From Burkholderiaceae bacterium (GTDB lineage Bacteria > Pseudomonadota > Gammaproteobacteria > Burkholderiales > Burkholderiaceae_E), in NCBI GenBank assembly GCA_019635275.1, contig JAHBZV010000031.1, positions 1 through 34,963 on the forward strand: DNA of 34,963 nt, written 5' to 3'. Shown piece after piece: positions 22,600-32,739 of the stretch. The notes beneath the pieces are model-generated. The model did no database searches, had not been told where the DNA came from, and saw only the letters and a program-made list of their open reading frames with translations. The translations under genes and the position numbers were made by a program. The stretch's first letter is position 1. Each line of letters opens with the position of its first letter.

Positions 22600-24681
22600 T
22601 CAGTCGGGTCGTGACGGGGACGCGACGGTGAAGCCGACCTCGACGCCGTCGGCGACGTCGCGCGCGAACGCGTGGCCGCCGTGGAACTCCGCGACCAGCC
22701 GCACAAGGTACAGGCCCAGGCCGAGGTGCGCCTCGCCGCCGCCACGGTGGTCGCGGATCGACACCATCGAGTCGAAGAGGTTGTCACGCATCGCGTTCGG
22801 CAGCGGCGGGCCCTGGTTGCGCACCGAGAAGACCCAGTGCTCGCCGGCCGAGCCGTCGGCCTCGTCGGCACGCCGCAGCGACAGCACGACCGGCGAACCG
22901 GCGCTGGCGAAATCGACGGCGTTCGAGACGAGCTTGTCGAGCGCCTGCACGATCGCTTCCGGAACGACCGGGCACGGCGCGGCGCCGGCCGCGCAGTCGA
23001 CCGCGAATTCGCGCGCAGGAAACGCGCTGCGATAGCCGGCGGCGCAGGCGTTCAGCAGCGCCGCCAGGTCGACCGATTCGAGGCGGCTCTGCGCGAGCAT
23101 CGCCTCGAGGCTCGACGCCTCGCCCATGCTCGCGACGATCCGCTCGAGGCGCTGTGCGCCGTCGCGGGCACGCGCGAGGTAGGCTTCGCGACCCTGTGGA
23201 TCGGCCTCGGCGGCCAGGTTGTCCAGCGACGAGCGCACGACCATGATCGGCGTGCGCAGTTCGTGGACCAGCCTGGCGCGCAGGTTGCCGACGTACTGCT
23301 GGTGCTGGCGCAGCCGCTCGAGCACGTTGGCGTGGCTCTCGGCGAGCGCGCCGATCTCGTCGCGAATGCGCGGCGCACGGATGCCGCCCACCACGCGGCC
23401 TCGCGAATCGATCGCCTGCTCGGCCTGCCTGCGCAACCGCACGACCCGCGCGACAGTCACCGACCCGACCGCGAGCAGCGCGAGCGCGCTGGCGGCCATC
23501 GCCGCCGCGGTGAGCAGCGCGAGCCGCTCGATCGCTTCGCGCGCCACGCCGAGTCGCGAGCCGGTGTTCTCCTCGAGCACCAGCGCGCCGACCACGCGGT
23601 CGCCGACCCACAGCGGCTGCGCGCTCGTCAGCATCCACACCGGCAGGCCGGCCTGGATCGCGATCCGTTCGGACTGCTGCGCCGCCACGCCGGACAGCGC
23701 GCGCGTGAGCGGCGGGATCGCCGGCGTGCTGCCCGGCGTCGACTCGTCCAGGAAGCGCTCGGGTCGCAGGCTCAGCGTCGCCGACAGCAAGCGACGCGCC
23801 AGGCGCGACTGCCAGTCGTCGGCCGGCGGCGGCCCTGCGGACACGCGGCCCGACTGGGCGAGCAGCGCGCCGCTCGCGTCGAACACCGAGACGCGCCCGC
23901 TGGCTCGCGAGAGCCCGCGCACTGCGTCGGCCCACAGCGCCGGACGACGATCCCTGCGGGTCGGCGCGGCGAACGGACGCACCGGCGCGAGCAGCCCCGA
24001 GTCGGCCTGGCCCTCGATGCGACGCGACCCGAGGTAGTCGACGTCGGTGATGCGCACGCGCAGCAGCGCCGGTTCGGCGTCGAACCCGATCTCGGCCATC
24101 CAGCCTCCCGGCCGCTCGACCGGTTGCACGCTCAGCGTCTGCATCGCGCCGGCATCGGAGCCGTACTCGACGACCAGTTCGTCGCCGGCCAGCCGGACGC
24201 CGTCGCGAACCTCGGGCACGACCAGCCGCTCGTCGTCGGCGTCGACGAGCAGGAAGAACTTGCCCGGTCGTTCCTGGGAGCGGGCGGCCGCGAGCCGCAC
24301 GCGCAGCACCGACGCGATCGTGCCGTCGGGCGCGCGCATCGGCAGCGCGCGGCCGGGCACCTCGAGCCACTCGCTCGCGTTCTGGTCGACGACGACGTCT
24401 GCCAGCAACTCGACCGGCAATGGCTCGGTGCCGGCGCGGCGATCGACGGTCGCAGCGCCCGTCTCGAACAGTTCGCGACGCTCGTGCAGCGAAGCCGCGA
24501 GGTTGCGCGCCGCCTGGGCCTGGTTCTCCAGTCGCTCGTTGCGCGCGAGCTCGGTCATCACCTCGGCGAAGCGCAGGCCGACCAGCGGCAACGCGAGCAG
24601 CGGCACCATCGCCAGCGCGAGCGTGAACCGCAGACCGAGCGGCAGGCGCCAGCGTCGCGTGCTACGCGGTGGCTGCCCCAT
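22600..24681 (-). CDS. pdsS: Dedicated sortase system histidine kinase PdsS
   Basis: The product is 693 aa, unusually long for a kinase and matching the proteobacterial dedicated-sortase-system kinase. A first membrane segment (about 17-40) precedes a large periplasmic sensor region of some 340 residues without a domain I can name, then a second membrane segment (about 385-411). A HAMP-like linker leads to the dimerisation domain with HELRTP (His473). The ATPase domain carries LDKLVSNAVDFA (N-box) and HLGLGLYLVRLVAEFHGG (G2). The kinase start overlaps the end of pdsR by 20 bp. With pdsR it is divergent from the sortase and its target. The large sensor may monitor the sorted protein or the envelope; this is inference. 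Confidence 0.88.
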   Translation of the reverse strand: MGQPPRSTRRWRLPLGLRFTLALAMVPLLALPLVGLRFAEVMTELARNERLENQAQAARNLAASLHERRELFETGAATVDRRAGTEPLPVELLADVVVDQNASEWLEVPGRALPMRAPDGTIASVLRVRLAAARSQERPGKFFLLVDADDERLVVPEVRDGVRLAGDELVVEYGSDAGAMQTLSVQPVERPGGWMAEIGFDAEPALLRVRITDVDYLGSRRIEGQADSGLLAPVRPFAAPTRRDRRPALWADAVRGLSRASGRVSVFDASGALLAQSGRVSAGPPPADDWQSRLARRLLSATLSLRPERFLDESTPGSTPAIPPLTRALSGVAAQQSERIAIQAGLPVWMLTSAQPLWVGDRVVGALVLEENTGSRLGVAREAIERLALLTAAAMAASALALLAVGSVTVARVVRLRRQAEQAIDSRGRVVGGIRAPRIRDEIGALAESHANVLERLRQHQQYVGNLRARLVHELRTPIMVVRSSLDNLAAEADPQGREAYLARARDGAQRLERIVASMGEASSLEAMLAQSRLESVDLAALLNACAAGYRSAFPAREFAVDCAAGAAPCPVVPEAIVQALDKLVSNAVDFASAGSPVVLSLRRADEADGSAGEHWVFSVRNQGPPLPNAMRDNLFDSMVSIRDHRGGGEAHLGLGLYLVRLVAEFHGGHAFARDVADGVEVGFTVASPSRPD

Positions 24682-25372
24682 CTCGCTCGACGAAGCGATA
24701 GCCCAGGCCGTAGACCGTCTCGATCGCGTCGAATGCCGGGTCGATCGCCTCGAACTTGCGCCGGATGCGCTTGACGTAGGACGTGACGGTCTGGTCGTCG
24801 ACCACCAGGTTGGCTTCGCGCATCAGCGCGTCGCGATCCTTCACGTGGCCGGGGTGCCGCGCCAGCGCGTGCAGCATCCAGAACTCGGTCACCGTCAGTT
24901 CGATCGGGTGGTCGCGCCAGCTGGCCTCGAACCGCGGCACGTCCAGGCGCAGCGCGCCACGCACCAGCTGCTCGGCCGGGCCCTGCGGCTGCGCCAGCAC
25001 GTCCACCCGGCGAAACAGCGCGGTGACGCGCGCGAGCAGGTGCGGCAGGCTGACGTTCTTGGTGAGGTAGTCGTCGGCGCCCAGGCGCAGCCCCGAGACG
25101 ATGTCGATCTCGGAATCGCGCGCCGACAGCATCAGGATCGGCAGCGCCGGCGCGCGCTCGCGCAGCCAGCGGCACAGCTCGAAGCCGCCATCGGGCTCGT
25201 CGCCCAACCCCACGTCGATGATCGCCATGTCGGGCAGGCGGGACGTGAGCGCCGCCTGCGCCTCGCGCCGGTCGGCGAAACCCTGGACCTCGAAGCCCTG
25301 GCGCACCAGCGCGTCGCGAAGGTTGTCGCGAATGGCGGGTTCGTCCTCGACGATGGCGATGCGGCGGCTCAT
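24662..25372 (-). CDS. pdsR: Dedicated sortase system response regulator PdsR
   Basis: The product is 236 aa. The receiver domain has Asp53 (IIDVGLG) as phospho-acceptor, LSARDSE and the Lys of YLTKN. The winged-helix output domain ends VYGLGYRFVERD. The block GDEPDGGFELCRWLRE after the acceptor is longer than in OmpR-type regulators and fits the dedicated-sortase regulator family. A longer open frame runs upstream to 25711, through the opposing sortase-target gene; the ATG at 25372 starts exactly on SRRIAIVEDEPAIR. There is no Shine-Dalgarno sequence, but a TACATT -10-like element stands six bases before the ATG, so the mRNA may be leaderless. It probably controls the divergent target-sortase pair through the 171-bp region between them. 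Confidence 0.88.
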   Translation of the reverse strand: MSRRIAIVEDEPAIRDNLRDALVRQGFEVQGFADRREAQAALTSRLPDMAIIDVGLGDEPDGGFELCRWLRERAPALPILMLSARDSEIDIVSGLRLGADDYLTKNVSLPHLLARVTALFRRVDVLAQPQGPAEQLVRGALRLDVPRFEASWRDHPIELTVTEFWMLHALARHPGHVKDRDALMREANLVVDDQTVTSYVKRIRRKFEAIDPAFDAIETVYGLGYRFVERDGAATA

Positions 25373-25543
25373 GCGCGCAATGTATCCCAAAGCCCTGCGC
25401 GCCCGTGCAGCGCGCCGCCGATGTCGGCGAAATGCCCGATTTGCGCCGGCTTCGGTCCGATTCACGCCCCGAGGGAGCCGCCGCGCAGGCGCGCAATCGA
25501 TCCTGCCGCGGCACTTCGCCGCGCCGACCAGGAGATCCCGGAC
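25373..25543. promoter_or_regulatory. Divergent promoter region between pdsR and the sortase target
   Basis: 171 bp separate the two start codons. TACATT at 25379-25384 (minus strand) is a possible pdsR -10, six bases from the ATG. No convincing plus-strand promoter is seen for the target gene, which may need an activator such as PdsR. AGGAG at 25530-25534 is the target ribosome-binding site. Confidence 0.45.
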
Positions 25544-27841
25544 ATGTCGCGTCACGCCGCCGCCGAACCGCTGCCCGTCGCGGACACCCCGCCACGCTTC
25601 GACTGGCGCGAATGGCTCGCCTTCGCCGGCTGCGTGGTCGGCACCGCGCTGTTCGTGTCGGTCGTGCTCGGCGCATTGGTGCTGATCATCAGCACTCATG
25701 CGATCGCCCAACCCGCGGCGGCGCCCGCCGCGGCCGCCTCCGCCGCTGCCTCCGCCTCCGCCGCGCCCGCCGACGCCGCGATCGAGCGGCTGCCCGACGT
25801 CGCGTCGCCGGGCAGCGCCGATCGCGCGACGCTGCTGTTCAGGACCACGCAGGGCCTGAAGGCCGCGCCGCTCGTCACGACCGACGTGCGGGTCGAGGTC
25901 ACCGGGCCGGTGGTGCGCACGACGGTCACGCAGGCCTTCGACAATCCGGGCCGCGGCTGGCTCGAGGGCATCTATGCGTTCCCGCTGCCCGACGACAGCG
26001 CGGTCGACCGGCTGCAGATGCGCATCGGCGAGCGGCTCGTCGAGGGCCGCATCCGCGAGCGCGCCGCTGCCCGCGCCGAGTACCGCGATGCGGCGGCGGC
26101 CGGCAAGCGCGCGTCGATCGTCGAGCAGCAGCGGCCGAACCTGTTCACCGCGCGAGTCGCGAACATCGCACCCGGCGCGCGCATCGCGATCCGCATCGAG
26201 TACCAGCAGGCGCTCGCGATGAAGGACGGCGCCTGGCGCCTGAGGCTGCCGACGGTGGTCGCGCCGCGCTACGACCCGGGCCGCGAGATCGTCGGCCCCG
26301 GGCCGCTACCCGTGCTGCTGCCCGCCACGGCCGGCGCCGTCTCGCCCGTCGTGGCGACGGGCGGCGACCAGGACGCCCATCGCGTCCCCAACGCGCTGTC
26401 GGTGAGCGTGCGCCTGGACGCCGGCGTGCCGGTGACGACGCCGCGCTCGTCGACGCACGCGATCCGCGTCGAGCAAGCCGCACCGAACCTGTACCGGATC
26501 GCGCTCGATGCCGCGGCGATCGCCGATCGGGACTTCGAGCTGCAGTGGTCGCCGTTGCCCGGCGAGCATCCGGCCGGCGCGTTCAGGGTCGAGCGGCACG
26601 AAGACCTGCACTACGGCCAGCTGATCCTCGCGCCGCCGGGCGGCGCCGGCGCCGACGTGCCCCGCATCGCGCGCGAGACCACGTTCGTGATCGACACCTC
26701 GGGGTCGATGGCCGGCACGTCGTTCGCGCAGGCGCTGCGCGCGCTGCGATACGGTATCGCGCAACTCAGGCCCGGCGACGCCTTCAACATCATCCGCTTC
26801 AGTAGCGGCCACGACAGCCTGTACGCGGCGCCGCGGCCGTTCGACGAAGCGAGGCGCCGCGAGGCGCTCGCGTGGATCGACCGGCTGCGCGCGGAAGGCG
26901 GCACCGAGATGCGCGGCGCGATCGAGCAGGCGCTCTCGGCACCCGCGACGCCCGGACGGGTCGGGCAGGTCGTGTTCATGACCGACGGGGCCGTCGGCTA
27001 CGAAGCCGAGATGCTCGCGCTGATCGAGCGCCGCCTCGGCTCGCGGCGCTTCTTCACGATCGGCATCGGCTCGGCCCCGAATGGCTGGTTCATGCGCAAG
27101 GCCGCGGCCGCCGGACGCGGCAGCTACACCTACGTCAACCGCGTCGAGGACGTCGAAGCCAGGATGGCCGAACTCTACGCCAGGCTGGCCAGGCCGATGC
27201 TCACCGGCCTGCAGCTGCGCTTCGACGGTGCGCAGCCGATCGACCCGGTGTCGCTGCCCGGGGAACTCTACGCCGGCGAGCCGATCGTCGTGCGTGCGCG
27301 CTTCGCCGGCATGCCGGGCGCCGCGGTGGTCTCGGGCAACGTCGGGGCGATTCGCTGGGAGAGCCGCGTCGAGGCCGCGCGCGCCGAAGGCAGCGGCCTG
27401 CACGCCGCGTGGGCGCGCCAGCGCATCGAGGAACTGGGCGACGAGATCGCGCGCGCCGGCGGCGACCGGACCGAGCTCGACGCGCTGCGCGCGCGCGTGC
27501 GCGACCTCGGGCTCGCCCACCACCTCGTCACCGCGTACACCAGCCTCGTCGCCGTCGACGTGACGCCGGTGCGCCCGGCCGACGCGCCGGTGCAGCCTGC
27601 GGCGGTGCCGACCCGGCTTCCCGCGGGATGGGAGCTCGACGCGGTCTTCGGCCAGGGCGAGCTCGCGCAGGGCGCGACGCCGGCCGCGCTTCACGTCGCC
27701 GCCGGCCTGCTGCTGCTCGCGCTGGCTTCGCTGCCGTGGTTGAGGTCGCGGCTGGCCGCCTCGCCGGCCCGCGCGGCGGCCCGCGGGCGGGCGCACGCGC
27801 GTGCGTCGGCGGCCTTCGCGCGCAACGGGGCCCGGCCATGA
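25544..27841 (+). CDS. VIT/vWA-domain surface protein, sortase substrate of a Gram-negative system
   Basis: The product is 765 aa. A membrane-spanning signal lies at about 24-54 and an Ala-rich linker follows. Next is a VIT (vault/inter-alpha-trypsin) domain from about 85 to 215 (TTDVRVEVTGPVVRTTVTQAF, FPLPDDSAVDRLQM). A vWA domain follows with MIDAS Asp384-x-Ser386-x-Ser388 and the later MTDGAVG motif. The C-terminus has the tripartite sorting layout: LAQGATP (707-713), a hydrophobic helix (about 717-733) and an Arg-rich tail of about 32 residues. Members of this proteobacterial family are normally the only substrate of the neighbouring sortase. AGGAG lies nine bases before the ATG; the open frame running upstream to 24047 is antisense to pdsS/pdsR. 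The stop overlaps the sortase start (ATGA). Adhesion or surface display is likely but unproven. Confidence 0.9.
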   Translation: MSRHAAAEPLPVADTPPRFDWREWLAFAGCVVGTALFVSVVLGALVLIISTHAIAQPAAAPAAAASAAASASAAPADAAIERLPDVASPGSADRATLLFRTTQGLKAAPLVTTDVRVEVTGPVVRTTVTQAFDNPGRGWLEGIYAFPLPDDSAVDRLQMRIGERLVEGRIRERAAARAEYRDAAAAGKRASIVEQQRPNLFTARVANIAPGARIAIRIEYQQALAMKDGAWRLRLPTVVAPRYDPGREIVGPGPLPVLLPATAGAVSPVVATGGDQDAHRVPNALSVSVRLDAGVPVTTPRSSTHAIRVEQAAPNLYRIALDAAAIADRDFELQWSPLPGEHPAGAFRVERHEDLHYGQLILAPPGGAGADVPRIARETTFVIDTSGSMAGTSFAQALRALRYGIAQLRPGDAFNIIRFSSGHDSLYAAPRPFDEARRREALAWIDRLRAEGGTEMRGAIEQALSAPATPGRVGQVVFMTDGAVGYEAEMLALIERRLGSRRFFTIGIGSAPNGWFMRKAAAAGRGSYTYVNRVEDVEARMAELYARLARPMLTGLQLRFDGAQPIDPVSLPGELYAGEPIVVRARFAGMPGAAVVSGNVGAIRWESRVEAARAEGSGLHAAWARQRIEELGDEIARAGGDRTELDALRARVRDLGLAHHLVTAYTSLVAVDVTPVRPADAPVQPAAVPTRLPAGWELDAVFGQGELAQGATPAALHVAAGLLLLALASLPWLRSRLAASPARAAARGRAHARASAAFARNGARP

Positions 27842-28491
27842 TCCAGTCGACGCGCCTGTGGCTGCTCGACCGCAGCATCGACCTGCGGCACGCGTGGCTG
27901 GCGGTCCGCCGACGGCTCGGCGCGCCCCGGCTCCTGGTGGCCGCGCTGGTCGCTGCCGGCCTGTGGCAGGTCGGCACCGGGCTGACCCTGTACGCGAAGG
28001 CCTGGCTTGCGCAGGTGCTGATCGAGCAGGCCTGGCAGCACAACCGCGAACAGGGGCGCGCATCCGCGCGCCCCTGGGCGTGGGCCGACACGACCGCCGT
28101 CGCGCGGATCACGTTCGTCGAGCAGGCGCGTTCGATGGTCGTGCTCGAGGGCGACGCCGGACGGGTGCTGGCCTTCGGACCGGGGCATCGCAACGGCACC
28201 GCGCTGCCCGGCGGCGCAGGCAACAGCGTAGTCAGCGGCCATCGCGATACCCACTTCCGCATCCTCGAGCGGGTGTCCGCGGGGCAACGCATCGTGGTCG
28301 AACTTCTCGACGGGCGAAGCCGCACCTATCGGGTGAGCGGAGCGCGCGTCGTCGATGCCCGCGACCTCGGCATCGTCGCCGACCGCGGCCGCGACGAGCT
28401 CACGCTGGTGACCTGCTGGCCGTTCGACGCCGTCGCGCCCGGCGGCCCGCTGCGCTACGTCGTGTCGGCGCTCGCCGAGGACCGTCCCTGA
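27838..28491 (+). CDS. Class GN sortase (Gram-negative dedicated sortase)
   Basis: The product is 217 aa. An N-terminal membrane helix (about 30-55, [20 protein letters not shown]) places the catalytic domain in the periplasm. The sortase catalytic residues are all present: His135 in SGHRDTHF, Cys193 in TLVTCWPFD and Arg206 in PLRYVV, in the correct order and spacing. Size and sequence style match the proteobacterial 'class GN' sortases that process a single VIT/vWA protein. The start overlaps the target's stop by 4 bp, so the two are translationally coupled. How the enzyme finds an acceptor in a Gram-negative envelope is unknown. The last 37 bp overlap the converging SEC-C gene. Confidence 0.92.
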
Positions 28492-30661: not shown

Positions 30662-31348
30662 ATGCCGAAAGTCCTGCTCGTCGATGACGACGTCGAACTG
30701 GCCGACCTGCTGCGCGAGTACCTGCAGCGGGAAGGCTTCGACACCGACGCCGTGCACGACGGCGCCTCCGGCGTGGCGCGCGCGCTCGACGGCGGCTACG
30801 ACATCGTGGTACTCGACGTGATGATGCCGGGGCTCGACGGCGTCGAGGCGCTGCGCCGGATCCGTCTGGCCAGCCGCGTGCCGGTGCTGATGCTCACCGC
30901 CCGGGGCGACGACGTCGATCGCATCGTCGGGCTCGAGCTGGGCGCCGACGATTATGTCCCCAAGCCGTGCACGCCGCGCGAGCTCGCCGCCCGCCTGCGC
31001 GCGATCCTTCGTCGCGCGCGTCCCGCCGACACCGGCGCCGCCGACGAGCCACTGGCCGCGGGGCCGCTATCGCTGTGGCCGGGCAAGCGGCTCGCGCGCT
31101 GGCGCGGCGAGACGCTGTCGCTGACCAGCACCGAGTTCAGCCTGCTCGAAGTGCTCGCGCGCCAGGCGGGGCGGGTCGTCGGCAAGGCCGAACTGTCGGA
31201 GCAGGCCCTCGGCCGGCCGCTGGCGCGCTTCGACCGCAGCATCGACGTGCACGTGAGCAGCCTGCGCCAGAAGCTCGGCCAGCGCGGCGACGGCCGCTCG
31301 TGGATCGAGACCGTGCGCGGGCGCGGCTACCAGTTCCTGCTCGACTGA
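30662..31348 (+). CDS. cpxR: Response regulator CpxR
   Basis: The product is 228 aa. The receiver domain has the acidic cluster Asp8-Asp9-Asp10, phospho-acceptor Asp52 (VLDVMMPG), LTARGDD and a Lys in YVPKPC. The GADDYVPKPCTPRELAARLRAILRR stretch is close to CpxR of enterobacteria. The winged-helix domain ends VRGRGYQFLLD. CpxR activates envelope-stress genes by binding GTAAA repeats, and such a box lies upstream. The ATG has no strong ribosome-binding site (CCACCTGCG). It is followed 14 bp later by the kinase. Identification as CpxR rests on sequence style, the divergent chaperone gene and the box together. Confidence 0.9.
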   Translation: MPKVLLVDDDVELADLLREYLQREGFDTDAVHDGASGVARALDGGYDIVVLDVMMPGLDGVEALRRIRLASRVPVLMLTARGDDVDRIVGLELGADDYVPKPCTPRELAARLRAILRRARPADTGAADEPLAAGPLSLWPGKRLARWRGETLSLTSTEFSLLEVLARQAGRVVGKAELSEQALGRPLARFDRSIDVHVSSLRQKLGQRGDGRSWIETVRGRGYQFLLD

Positions 31349-31362
31349 CCGGAACGGCGACG

Positions 31363-32739
31363 ATGGGCCGGTTGTTCTGGAAGTTCTTCCTCGCGTTCTG
31401 GCTCGCGCTGCTGCTGGCAGGCGCGGCGGTGGGCTCGCTCGTCTGGCTGCACCAGCAGCGCGTGGCCCGCGACGAGCCGGCGCTGGCGGCCGGTCCGCGG
31501 GCGGCGCTCGCCCTGCAGGCGGCCGCCGCCACGCTGCGCCACGGCGGCGTGCCCGCGCTGCGCGCGCTGCTCGGCGACGCGGCCCCGCCGTGGAGCGCGG
31601 CGGTCGTCTATGCGGTCGACCGCGACGGAAAGGACCTCCTCGGCCGCGACGTGCCGGCCGACGCGCTCGAGCGCGCGCGCGGGCTCGCCGCGCGGCCCGT
31701 TGCGCCGCGCGCGGCACGCGCCGTGCGCTACGACGACGCGAGCGGGCTGCTGCTGTTCGTGCCGTTCGCCGCCGACGGAACGATCCGCCCGGCGCCGCGC
31801 CCCGCGCGATTCGGCCGGCCGGCCGAGCCGCTGCCGCCGGTGCTGCTGGGTGCGATCGGCCTGCTCGCCAGCGTCGCGTTCAGCGCGCTGCTCGCCTGGT
31901 CGCTGACGCGCCCGATCCGCCACCTGCGCCGCGCGGTCGCTTCGGTCGCCGAGGGCCGGCTCGACACCCGCGTCGCGCCGCTGATGGGGCGTCGCGCCGA
32001 CGAGATCGCCGACCTGGGCCGGGACTTCGACCAGATGGCGCACCGACTGCAGCAGCTGGTGGCTTCGCAGAGGCGCCTGCTGCACGACGTGTCGCACGAG
32101 TTGCGCTCGCCGTTGGCGCGACTGCAGGCCGCGGTCGGACTGGCGCGCCAGGACCCCGAACGCACCGCGTCGATGCTCGAGCGCATCGAGCGCGAGGCGA
32201 ACCGGCTCGACGGCCTGGTGGGCGAACTGCTCGCGCTCGCCCGGCTCGAGGCCGGCAACGCGCTGCCCCCGCTCGAGCGCGTCGACCTGGTCGAGCTGGT
32301 CGAGGCGATCGTCGACGACGCGCGCTTCGAGGCGCGTGCGAGCGGGCGCGACGTCTCGTTCGCGGGCGCCGACCCGGTGATGGCGACGGCGCGCGCTGAG
32401 CTGCTGCACCGGGCGTTCGAGAACGTGATCCGCAACGCGGTGAAATACACGCGCGAGGGCACCGCGGTCGAGGTGCGCGTCGGCCTGCCGGGCGCGCCGG
32501 TCCGTGACGGCGCTCCCTTCGTGCTGAGCGTGGCCGACCGCGGGCCCGGCGTTCCCGAGCCCGAACTCGAGGCCATCTTCGAGCCCTTCCATCGCGCGCG
32601 CAACGGCGCCGGCGAGCACGGCTTCGGCCTGGGCCTGGCGATCGCGCGCCGCGCGATCGAGGCGCACGGCGGGCGCATCGTCGCGCGCAATCGGGACGGC
32701 GGCGGGCTGGCCGTCGAGATCGAAGTGCCGCGGGGCTGA
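31363..32739 (+). CDS. cpxA: Sensor histidine kinase CpxA
   Basis: The product is 458 aa, the CpxA size. Membrane segments at about 7-28 and 158-183 flank a periplasmic domain of some 130 residues. HAMP is at about 184-237 (TRPIRHLRRAVASVAEGRL), and the dimerisation domain has SHELRSPL (phospho-acceptor His245). The ATPase domain has the N-box VIRNAVKYT, ADRGPGVP and GFGLGLAIARRAIEAHGG. HELRSP, rather than HELRTP, is typical of CpxA. CpxA senses misfolded envelope proteins and is usually inhibited by CpxP. The open frame extends far upstream on paper, but the ATG at 31363, 14 bp after cpxR, begins on the first membrane helix. Confidence 0.9.
   Translation: MGRLFWKFFLAFWLALLLAGAAVGSLVWLHQQRVARDEPALAAGPRAALALQAAAATLRHGGVPALRALLGDAAPPWSAAVVYAVDRDGKDLLGRDVPADALERARGLAARPVAPRAARAVRYDDASGLLLFVPFAADGTIRPAPRPARFGRPAEPLPPVLLGAIGLLASVAFSALLAWSLTRPIRHLRRAVASVAEGRLDTRVAPLMGRRADEIADLGRDFDQMAHRLQQLVASQRRLLHDVSHELRSPLARLQAAVGLARQDPERTASMLERIEREANRLDGLVGELLALARLEAGNALPPLERVDLVELVEAIVDDARFEARASGRDVSFAGADPVMATARAELLHRAFENVIRNAVKYTREGTAVEVRVGLPGAPVRDGAPFVLSVADRGPGVPEPELEAIFEPFHRARNGAGEHGFGLGLAIARRAIEAHGGRIVARNRDGGGLAVEIEVPRG

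Follow-up and report, generated by a model that had tools for sequence, protein, structure and literature searches.

Sortases, enzymes that anchor proteins, are mainly familiar from Gram-positive bacteria. In the proteobacterial dedicated sortase (Pds) system of Gram-negative organisms, a class GN sortase (TIGR03784) stands beside a single VIT/vWA target (TIGR03788), the response regulator PdsR (TIGR03787), and the sensor kinase PdsS (TIGR03785); as we understand the NCBI model set, PdsO (TIGR03789), presumably a member of the OmpA family, is counted as part of the system as well. What class GN sortases do for Gram-negative organisms is described as unknown (PMC10581121), and a review connects pdsS and pdsO of Shewanella algae with the integrity of the membrane and with resistance to beta-lactams (PMC12114352). 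The excerpts of two further papers, one listing an Ensifer adhaerens sortase target among proteins of altered expression (PMC6637203) and the other mentioning pdsO under tRNA synthesis (PMC9927453), tell of no function. Here, we analyze a window of 34,963 nucleotides from a Burkholderiaceae bacterium (positions 1-34963 of contig 88; genome of 3.69 Mb in 162 contigs, 86.8% complete) with a sortase locus at positions 22600 to 28491. This locus genuinely belongs to the known, little-studied Pds system but has a variant of the sorting signal; in the window's family, the regulatory core is more widespread than the sortase.

Two further described systems help to place the locus. The class D sortase SrtC of Bacillus anthracis is encoded in the operon basI-srtC-sctR-sctS, which likewise brings target, sortase, regulator, and kinase together; its LPNTA signal is cleaved between T and A, and the acceptor is meso-diaminopimelate (m-Dpm) (PMC3297441). 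The window shares the Ala at P1' with this system, which differs in belonging to a Gram-positive spore-former and in having Pro and Thr in its motif. With the class E sortase SrtE1 of Streptomyces coelicolor (LAxTG), the window shares the Ala at P3, whereas P1 is Thr in SrtE1 substrates. Position names from P4 to P2' presuppose the class D cleavage point (T|A) throughout. On balance, we think it probable that the class GN sortase of the window, under the control of PdsRS, anchors the vWA protein to m-Dpm of the periplasmic peptidoglycan and that the Ala at P3 is read by an altered S3 pocket.

All four genes are open frames, and their translation bore out the arrangement given in the original prediction, with target and sortase on the forward strand and, divergent from them, the regulator and a 693-aa kinase on the reverse strand. 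The 217-aa sortase (27838 to 28491) scores 198.7 bits against TIGR03784 (NCBIfam cut-off, as for the other Pds models, 158.25) and shares 4 bp (27838-27841) with the gene for the 765-aa target (25544 to 27841), which reaches 616.9 bits against TIGR03788 (cut-off 551.65). The target begins with an N-terminal module (codons 1 to 54, 25544 to 25705, forward strand) made up of FDWREW and a hydrophobic span that stops just ahead of AQ in AIAQ. It continues with a VIT domain (PF08487; 25874 to 26203, forward) and a vWA domain (PF13768; 26681 to 27130, forward), in which DTSGS at residue 384 is presumably the metal ion-dependent adhesion site (MIDAS). The 236-aa regulator (24662 to 25372, ATG at 25372) combines a receiver carrying Asp53 with a Trans_reg_C domain and scores 345.5 bits against TIGR03787 (cut-off 335.7). 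Its gene shares 20 bp with that of the kinase (22600 to 24681), which has HisKA and HATPase_c domains, His473 in the H box, and hydrophobic spans at about residues 21-39 and 387-405 flanking a large, presumably periplasmic part.

For each of the four proteins, a Pds model is the best NCBIfam family. Assignment to the Pds families, as first proposed, held for the sortase, target, and regulator; the kinase misses the TIGR03785 cut-off (367.3 of 612.2 bits), although this model is its best family, and we call it PdsS-like by position and best match and do not class it as an equivalog. Among related loci, 17 kinases were extracted and nine scored, some with guessed start codons. None of the nine reaches the cut-off (185 to 527 bits), which thus appears to suit some members of the family and not others; for eight of them, TIGR03785 is still the top model.

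The active-site residues named from the window alone, His135, Cys193, and Arg206, proved to be kept across the family. In an alignment of 80 sortases (the window's and those of 79 of 80 related loci), His135 and Cys193 are present in every row and Arg206 in 79, the remaining row being a gap. A single hydrophobic span lies near the N terminus (about residues 33-51). The enzyme stays under the cut-offs for class D (NF058671 and NF033746, 89.0 and 84.4 bits versus 140 and 165) and class E (NF033747, 57.4 versus 160). By profile, its closest solved structure is 2ln7 (E 8e-27), which we take to be the B. anthracis class D sortase. The entry is described as a class D sortase (PMC5148588), and the class D enzyme from B. 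anthracis has been solved by nuclear magnetic resonance (PMC4498605). The five nearest loci come from Burkholderiaceae/Burkholderiales assemblies, with sortases 89% (L008), 82% (L012, residues 43-215 only), 74% (L009), 73% (L010), and 65% (L011) identical to the window's. A PF04203 search for other sortases in the window's own, 86.8% complete genome matched one place only.

The C-terminal sorting signal expected on the target is there in its architecture, with a motif, a membrane span, and a basic tail; the motif, however, is LAQGAT (residues 707-712; 27662 to 27679, forward strand) instead of LPxTG. We compared it with the signals in 197 stretches (80 named loci, L104, loci from wider genome samples, extra fetched stretches, and the window), all of which have a sortase match and 177 a target match. 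From these, 170 signals were kept, near-identical pairs from two genome collections among them; L157-L161 were dropped as repeats of other loci and L084 and L193 for poor ends, and L076 was set by hand. With shares somewhat inflated by a choice of hexamers that prefers motif-like letters, P4 is L in 96 signals, F in 25, M in 22, Y in 14, and another residue in 13; P3 is P in 122, A in 47, and G in 1; P1 is T in 115 and G in 55; P1' is A in 137, S in 19, G in 8, and D in 6; and P2' is T in 150. LAQGAT thus agrees with the common LPxTAT form at P4, P1', and P2' and differs from it at P3 and P1, and close kin of the window carry LAQGAT, LARGAT, or LGKGAT. We considered and discarded a cut behind the conserved second Thr (P2'): in the commonest forms, Leu-Pro is placed to suit a cut behind the first Thr or Gly, and class D enzymes cleave T|A. 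Separately, a few genomes of the order (L140, L141, L144, L145, and L147) have targets whose signal carries Asp at P1' (LPQTDT, IPQTDT, or LPQTDI). Among the literature matches listed, we found no description of a P1-Gly signal, an operator, or sortase-less loci, and none on motif variants that concerned Gram-negative sortases by title.

The sortase appears to have one substrate. In 73 of the 80 related loci, the sortase is preceded on its own strand by a target match; in L053, L054, and L087 the sortase lies near a contig end, and L080, L083, L085, and L086 show no target match. A profile built from 18 tails, the window's own included, found no convincing second sorting tail in the 86.8% complete genome (E 0.455 for the next match, against 2.6e-15 for the window's tail, which scores so by construction). 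A second VIT/vWA protein (C1:277310, an 878-aa frame; L221, L222) was considered as a substrate and rejected; its translation shows neither a membrane span nor a sorting tail at the C terminus, and a signal peptide is not evident. A pairing of one sortase with one substrate would also suit an enzyme that is mainly a protease, cutting the target, hydrolyzing the acyl-enzyme, and freeing the vWA domain into the periplasm, and the Gly at P1 in 55 of the 170 targets is unlike the Thr of the classes treated in PMC5148588. Still, the catalytic residues of transpeptidating sortases are kept and no feature hints at hydrolysis, and we regard this alternative as distinctly improbable.

Anchoring by transpeptidation, the reading we prefer, includes a prediction of how the unusual P3 residue is recognized, which comes from sortase columns that vary with P3. 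In 168 distinct sortases (47 with a residue other than Pro at P3 and 121 with Pro), the three columns with the highest mutual information with P3 are 118, 106, and 133. Column 118 is A, N, R, or T in 45 of the 47 non-Pro sortases versus 12 of the 121 Pro sortases (Fisher P = 3.6e-27), and L, V, M, or I in 91 of the Pro type versus one of the non-Pro type. Asp at column 106 (42 of 47 versus 10 of 121; P = 2.1e-24) and Ser at column 133 (45 of 47 versus 30 of 121; P = 2.8e-18) follow the same division; all three tests ignore kinship. The window sortase has D106, R118, and S133. Kinship was allowed for, and all columns handled alike, in a branch test on the sortase tree, where 8 of 14 changes at P3 share a branch with a change at column 118 (0.38 expected; first of 123 columns) and 5 of 14 with a change at column 106 (0.34 expected; second).

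These columns map near the S3 pocket of SrtE1, which was described independently. Window residue 118 directly follows GH, as Tyr229 does in SrtE1 according to the primer sequences and strand limits given in PMC5148588, so that Arg118 occupies the Tyr229 position; where SrtE1 has Tyr, the non-Pro type of class GN has A, N, R, or T. Residue 133 lies two before His135, as Ala249 does relative to His251, and residue 106 lies 12 before 118, which corresponds to SrtE1 position 217 if no gap intervenes. In a profile alignment, 4d70, which we take to be C. perfringens SrtD, has Phe at column 118. The Tyr229 counterpart in the C. perfringens enzyme is given as F92, and in SrtE1 itself, the Tyr229 hydroxyl is positioned for a bond with the P3 Ala amide, Ile215, Leu221, and Ala249 touch the P3 side chain, and His251 is catalytic (PMC5148588). 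In the window, Asp106 may serve as the acceptor for the P3 amide.

The divergent promoter holds a candidate site for the regulator. A 24-base motif reaches 22.0 bits in 21 of 31 extracted PdsR-adjacent regions (one per close group), versus a mean of 10.97 and a maximum of 11.46 bits in 20 dinucleotide shuffles with equal starts, a comparison that the kinship of the sequences flatters. In the window, two overlapping 24-mers, at 25423-25446 and 25434-25457 and thus 11 bp apart, form a GCC-led tandem repeat (25423 to 25457, strand not given). With a 17-site matrix made without the nearest relatives' sites, 25434 and 25423 rank first and second among all positions on both strands. Of 40 loci whose regulator is divergent, many of which had served for training, 26 have a site scoring at least 10 within the 450 bases ahead of the target and the first 60 inside it, versus 9 of 31 loci that lack such a regulator. 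A tandem-repeat site with an 11-bp step is what is expected for an OmpR-type regulator, and PdsR probably binds the repeat.

From the genes and their families, the catalytic residues, the signal, the covariation, and the operator motif, we infer the cleavage point, the acceptor, and the regulation as follows. PdsS would detect an envelope signal, and PdsR would act at the tandem 11-bp site of the divergent promoter. The VIT/vWA protein would be exported via its N-terminal membrane segment, while its C-terminal span would retain it in the inner membrane. Reading the P3 Ala in an S3 pocket whose position 118 (the SrtE1 Tyr229 position), Asp106, and Ser133 would have changed along with the signal, the sortase would cut behind Gly with Cys193 (LAQG|AT). 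An amine would then resolve the acyl-enzyme, most likely the side-chain amine of m-Dpm in periplasmic lipid II or peptidoglycan, and the vWA protein would end as a periplasmic protein covalently anchored to the wall.

The original prediction had called the acceptor of the sorting reaction unknown, a statement that was right; m-Dpm is offered here, by analogy with SrtC, as a candidate from the literature. MurE of the window's own genome carries DNPR, which we take to be the mark of m-Dpm ligases, and because of it the acceptor type used by SrtC should be available in the periplasm. The sortase might instead link the vWA protein to another amine, that of a lipoprotein, an outer-membrane protein, or a lipopolysaccharide or lipid, and so bring it to the outer membrane or the cell surface. 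Surface display was how the locus was first read, vWA domains are often adhesive, and Shewanella algae pdsS is associated with pdsO, described as an outer membrane-like protein (PMC12114352). On the other side, PdsO is below its cut-off in the window's genome and in the 49 genomes of related loci (other outer-membrane partners were not systematically sought), and the closest enzyme by profile is of class D, a class whose B. anthracis member uses m-Dpm. We therefore consider linkage to such an amine unlikely.

Several points weigh against the preferred reading as a whole, in addition to the inflated signal shares given above. With a single-sequence query, the best solved match is the class C sortase 8t28 (E 8.4e-13), and 2ln7 comes second. 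PdsO reaches at best 68.3 bits of the required 152.2 in the 86.8% complete genome. In the covariation, the residue sets of the branch test were picked after the enrichment had been seen, and column 133, third by mutual information, is outside the 10 best columns of that test. Asp106 also occurs in 10 of the 121 Pro-type sortases, and a Treekit sign test on starred branches found three independent pairs only and thus has no power. Finally, the branch test for Gly at P1 gave L111 (I/M) with 7 of 19 changes and S133 (F/G) with 5 of 19, so columns outside the S3 set can reach counts as high as these; few rows bear these letters, I or M at column 111 occurring in 28% of Gly rows and 4% of Thr rows. 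By mutual information, no sortase column showed clear covariation with Gly or Thr at P1.

The PdsO result also bears on how the locus is described. It had been called complete, which was not borne out, as PdsO is over its cut-off neither in the window's genome nor in any of the 49 related genomes (the search covered the genomes of 50 of the 80 loci, except that of L030). A setting mostly in marine gamma-proteobacteria likewise turned out to be too narrow. The nearest loci are from Burkholderiales, and others bear the titles Thauera, Azoarcus, Arenimonas, Kiloniella, Myxococcota, and Acidobacteria; the habitats of Thauera and Arenimonas fit badly with a marine restriction. At E <= 0.001, and with the window's genome included in every sample, TIGR03784 matched in 37 of 398 genomes of the phylum sample (33 over the cut-off), 56 of 369 of the class sample (48), 23 of 399 of the order sample (19), and 7 of 74 of the family (7). 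Compared with the Pds system as described, then, the window differs in the PdsO not found, the kinase score, the LAQGAT in place of an LPxT-type motif, and its place in the Burkholderiales.

Some loci in the survey deserve separate mention. In L157-L161 (G838, G680, G610, G762, and G735, one genus), a second weak sortase match, covering profile positions 109-174, lies about 160 bases from the first and is possibly a tandem second sortase. L010 has sortase and target with no PdsR or PdsS match in the locus, and G060 holds the matching sortase with no PdsR at E <= 1e-80. The sortases of L035, L070, and L071, titled Rhizobium, Mycobacterium, and Mesoflavibacter, group among Arenimonas or alphaproteobacterial rows, and these assemblies are possibly misnamed or mixed. 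Elsewhere in the window, the 3' end of the sortase gene shares 37 bases (28455-28491) with a convergent UPF0149/SEC-C gene, and translations show another response regulator frame and a kinase-like frame at 30662-32739, with no tie to the Pds locus noticed.

The regulatory genes are more widespread than the sortase in the relatives of the window. Among 18 genomes of its genus, 16 have PdsR (E <= 1e-80) and 5 a sortase. PdsR without sortase was found in 13 genomes, 11 of the genus and two elsewhere in the family (G050 and G059, both just under the PdsR cut-off); some of the 13 are incomplete, such as G122 (65%) and G108 (68%). One might see in this pattern, with sister genomes being without sortase, a sign that the locus of the window is itself a decaying remnant. 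Its four genes are open with the catalytic residues in place, however, and the nearest relative's sortase is still 89% identical, which makes decay very improbable. Loss in other lineages is a different matter. A tree of PdsR plus PdsS needs three changes between the full and the sortase-less state (G050 and G059 not counted, outgroups taken as full), and G107 retains a 33-aa open reading frame (ORF) like the sortase N terminus (72% over 25 residues, 40 bits); on these two grounds, we favor repeated loss of the sortase.

What remains in the 13 sortase-less loci is similar from one to the next. A kinase stands beside PdsR in all of them (cut by a contig end in G116 and G122), and the operator candidate is the top site in 11 and the second in 2 (fetched DNA of 3.1 to 11.9 kb). 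In each, an ORF resembling the N terminus of the target stands divergent from PdsR, detected by tblastn in nine (six at E <= 1e-10, three at about 41 bits) and by eye or motif only in G106, G107, G108, and G059. This ORF has 50-55 aa in G109, G112, G116, G121, G115, and G118, 93-94 aa in G113 and G122, about 45 aa in G050 and G059, and 205-215 aa with an Ala/Pro-rich tail in G106-G108. As read by eye, four of the short stubs terminate in AI or TI/AV plus G or S, at the place of a possible signal peptidase site in the full target.

It is possible, and we put it forward tentatively, that the stable core of Pds consists of PdsS-PdsR, the operator, and a single-span microprotein of about 50 aa, the target N terminus, that partners PdsS; the VIT/vWA part, sorting signal, and sortase would then be an add-on lost several times in the family, with the microprotein left each time. 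A function for the stub is suggested by its W[RG][ED]W core and membrane span, recognizable across lineages whose kinases are 54-65% identical to the window's. Counting against it, pN/pS is only weakly below one in four stub genomes (pooled proportions of nonsynonymous and synonymous differences, pN 0.142 versus pS 0.212; 17, 11, and 17 variable columns by codon position), a weak indication of purifying selection, and the stub may be kept beside a live promoter by chance. By analogy only, such loci can be likened to MgrB-PhoQ type regulators, in that a single-span protein of roughly 45-55 aa stands beside a two-component system with a candidate site; MgrB has 47 aa (PMC8404706).

The Pds family was already known. 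New leads come from the motif at which it cuts, from a site through which the locus is probably controlled, and from what became of the switch in sortase-less relatives. For a class of sortases with little described function, the survey yields a consensus for the signal, residues predicted to set specificity, an operator candidate, and a specific candidate for the acceptor. The PdsRS loci that have no sortase offer a natural experiment on the action of the switch by itself.

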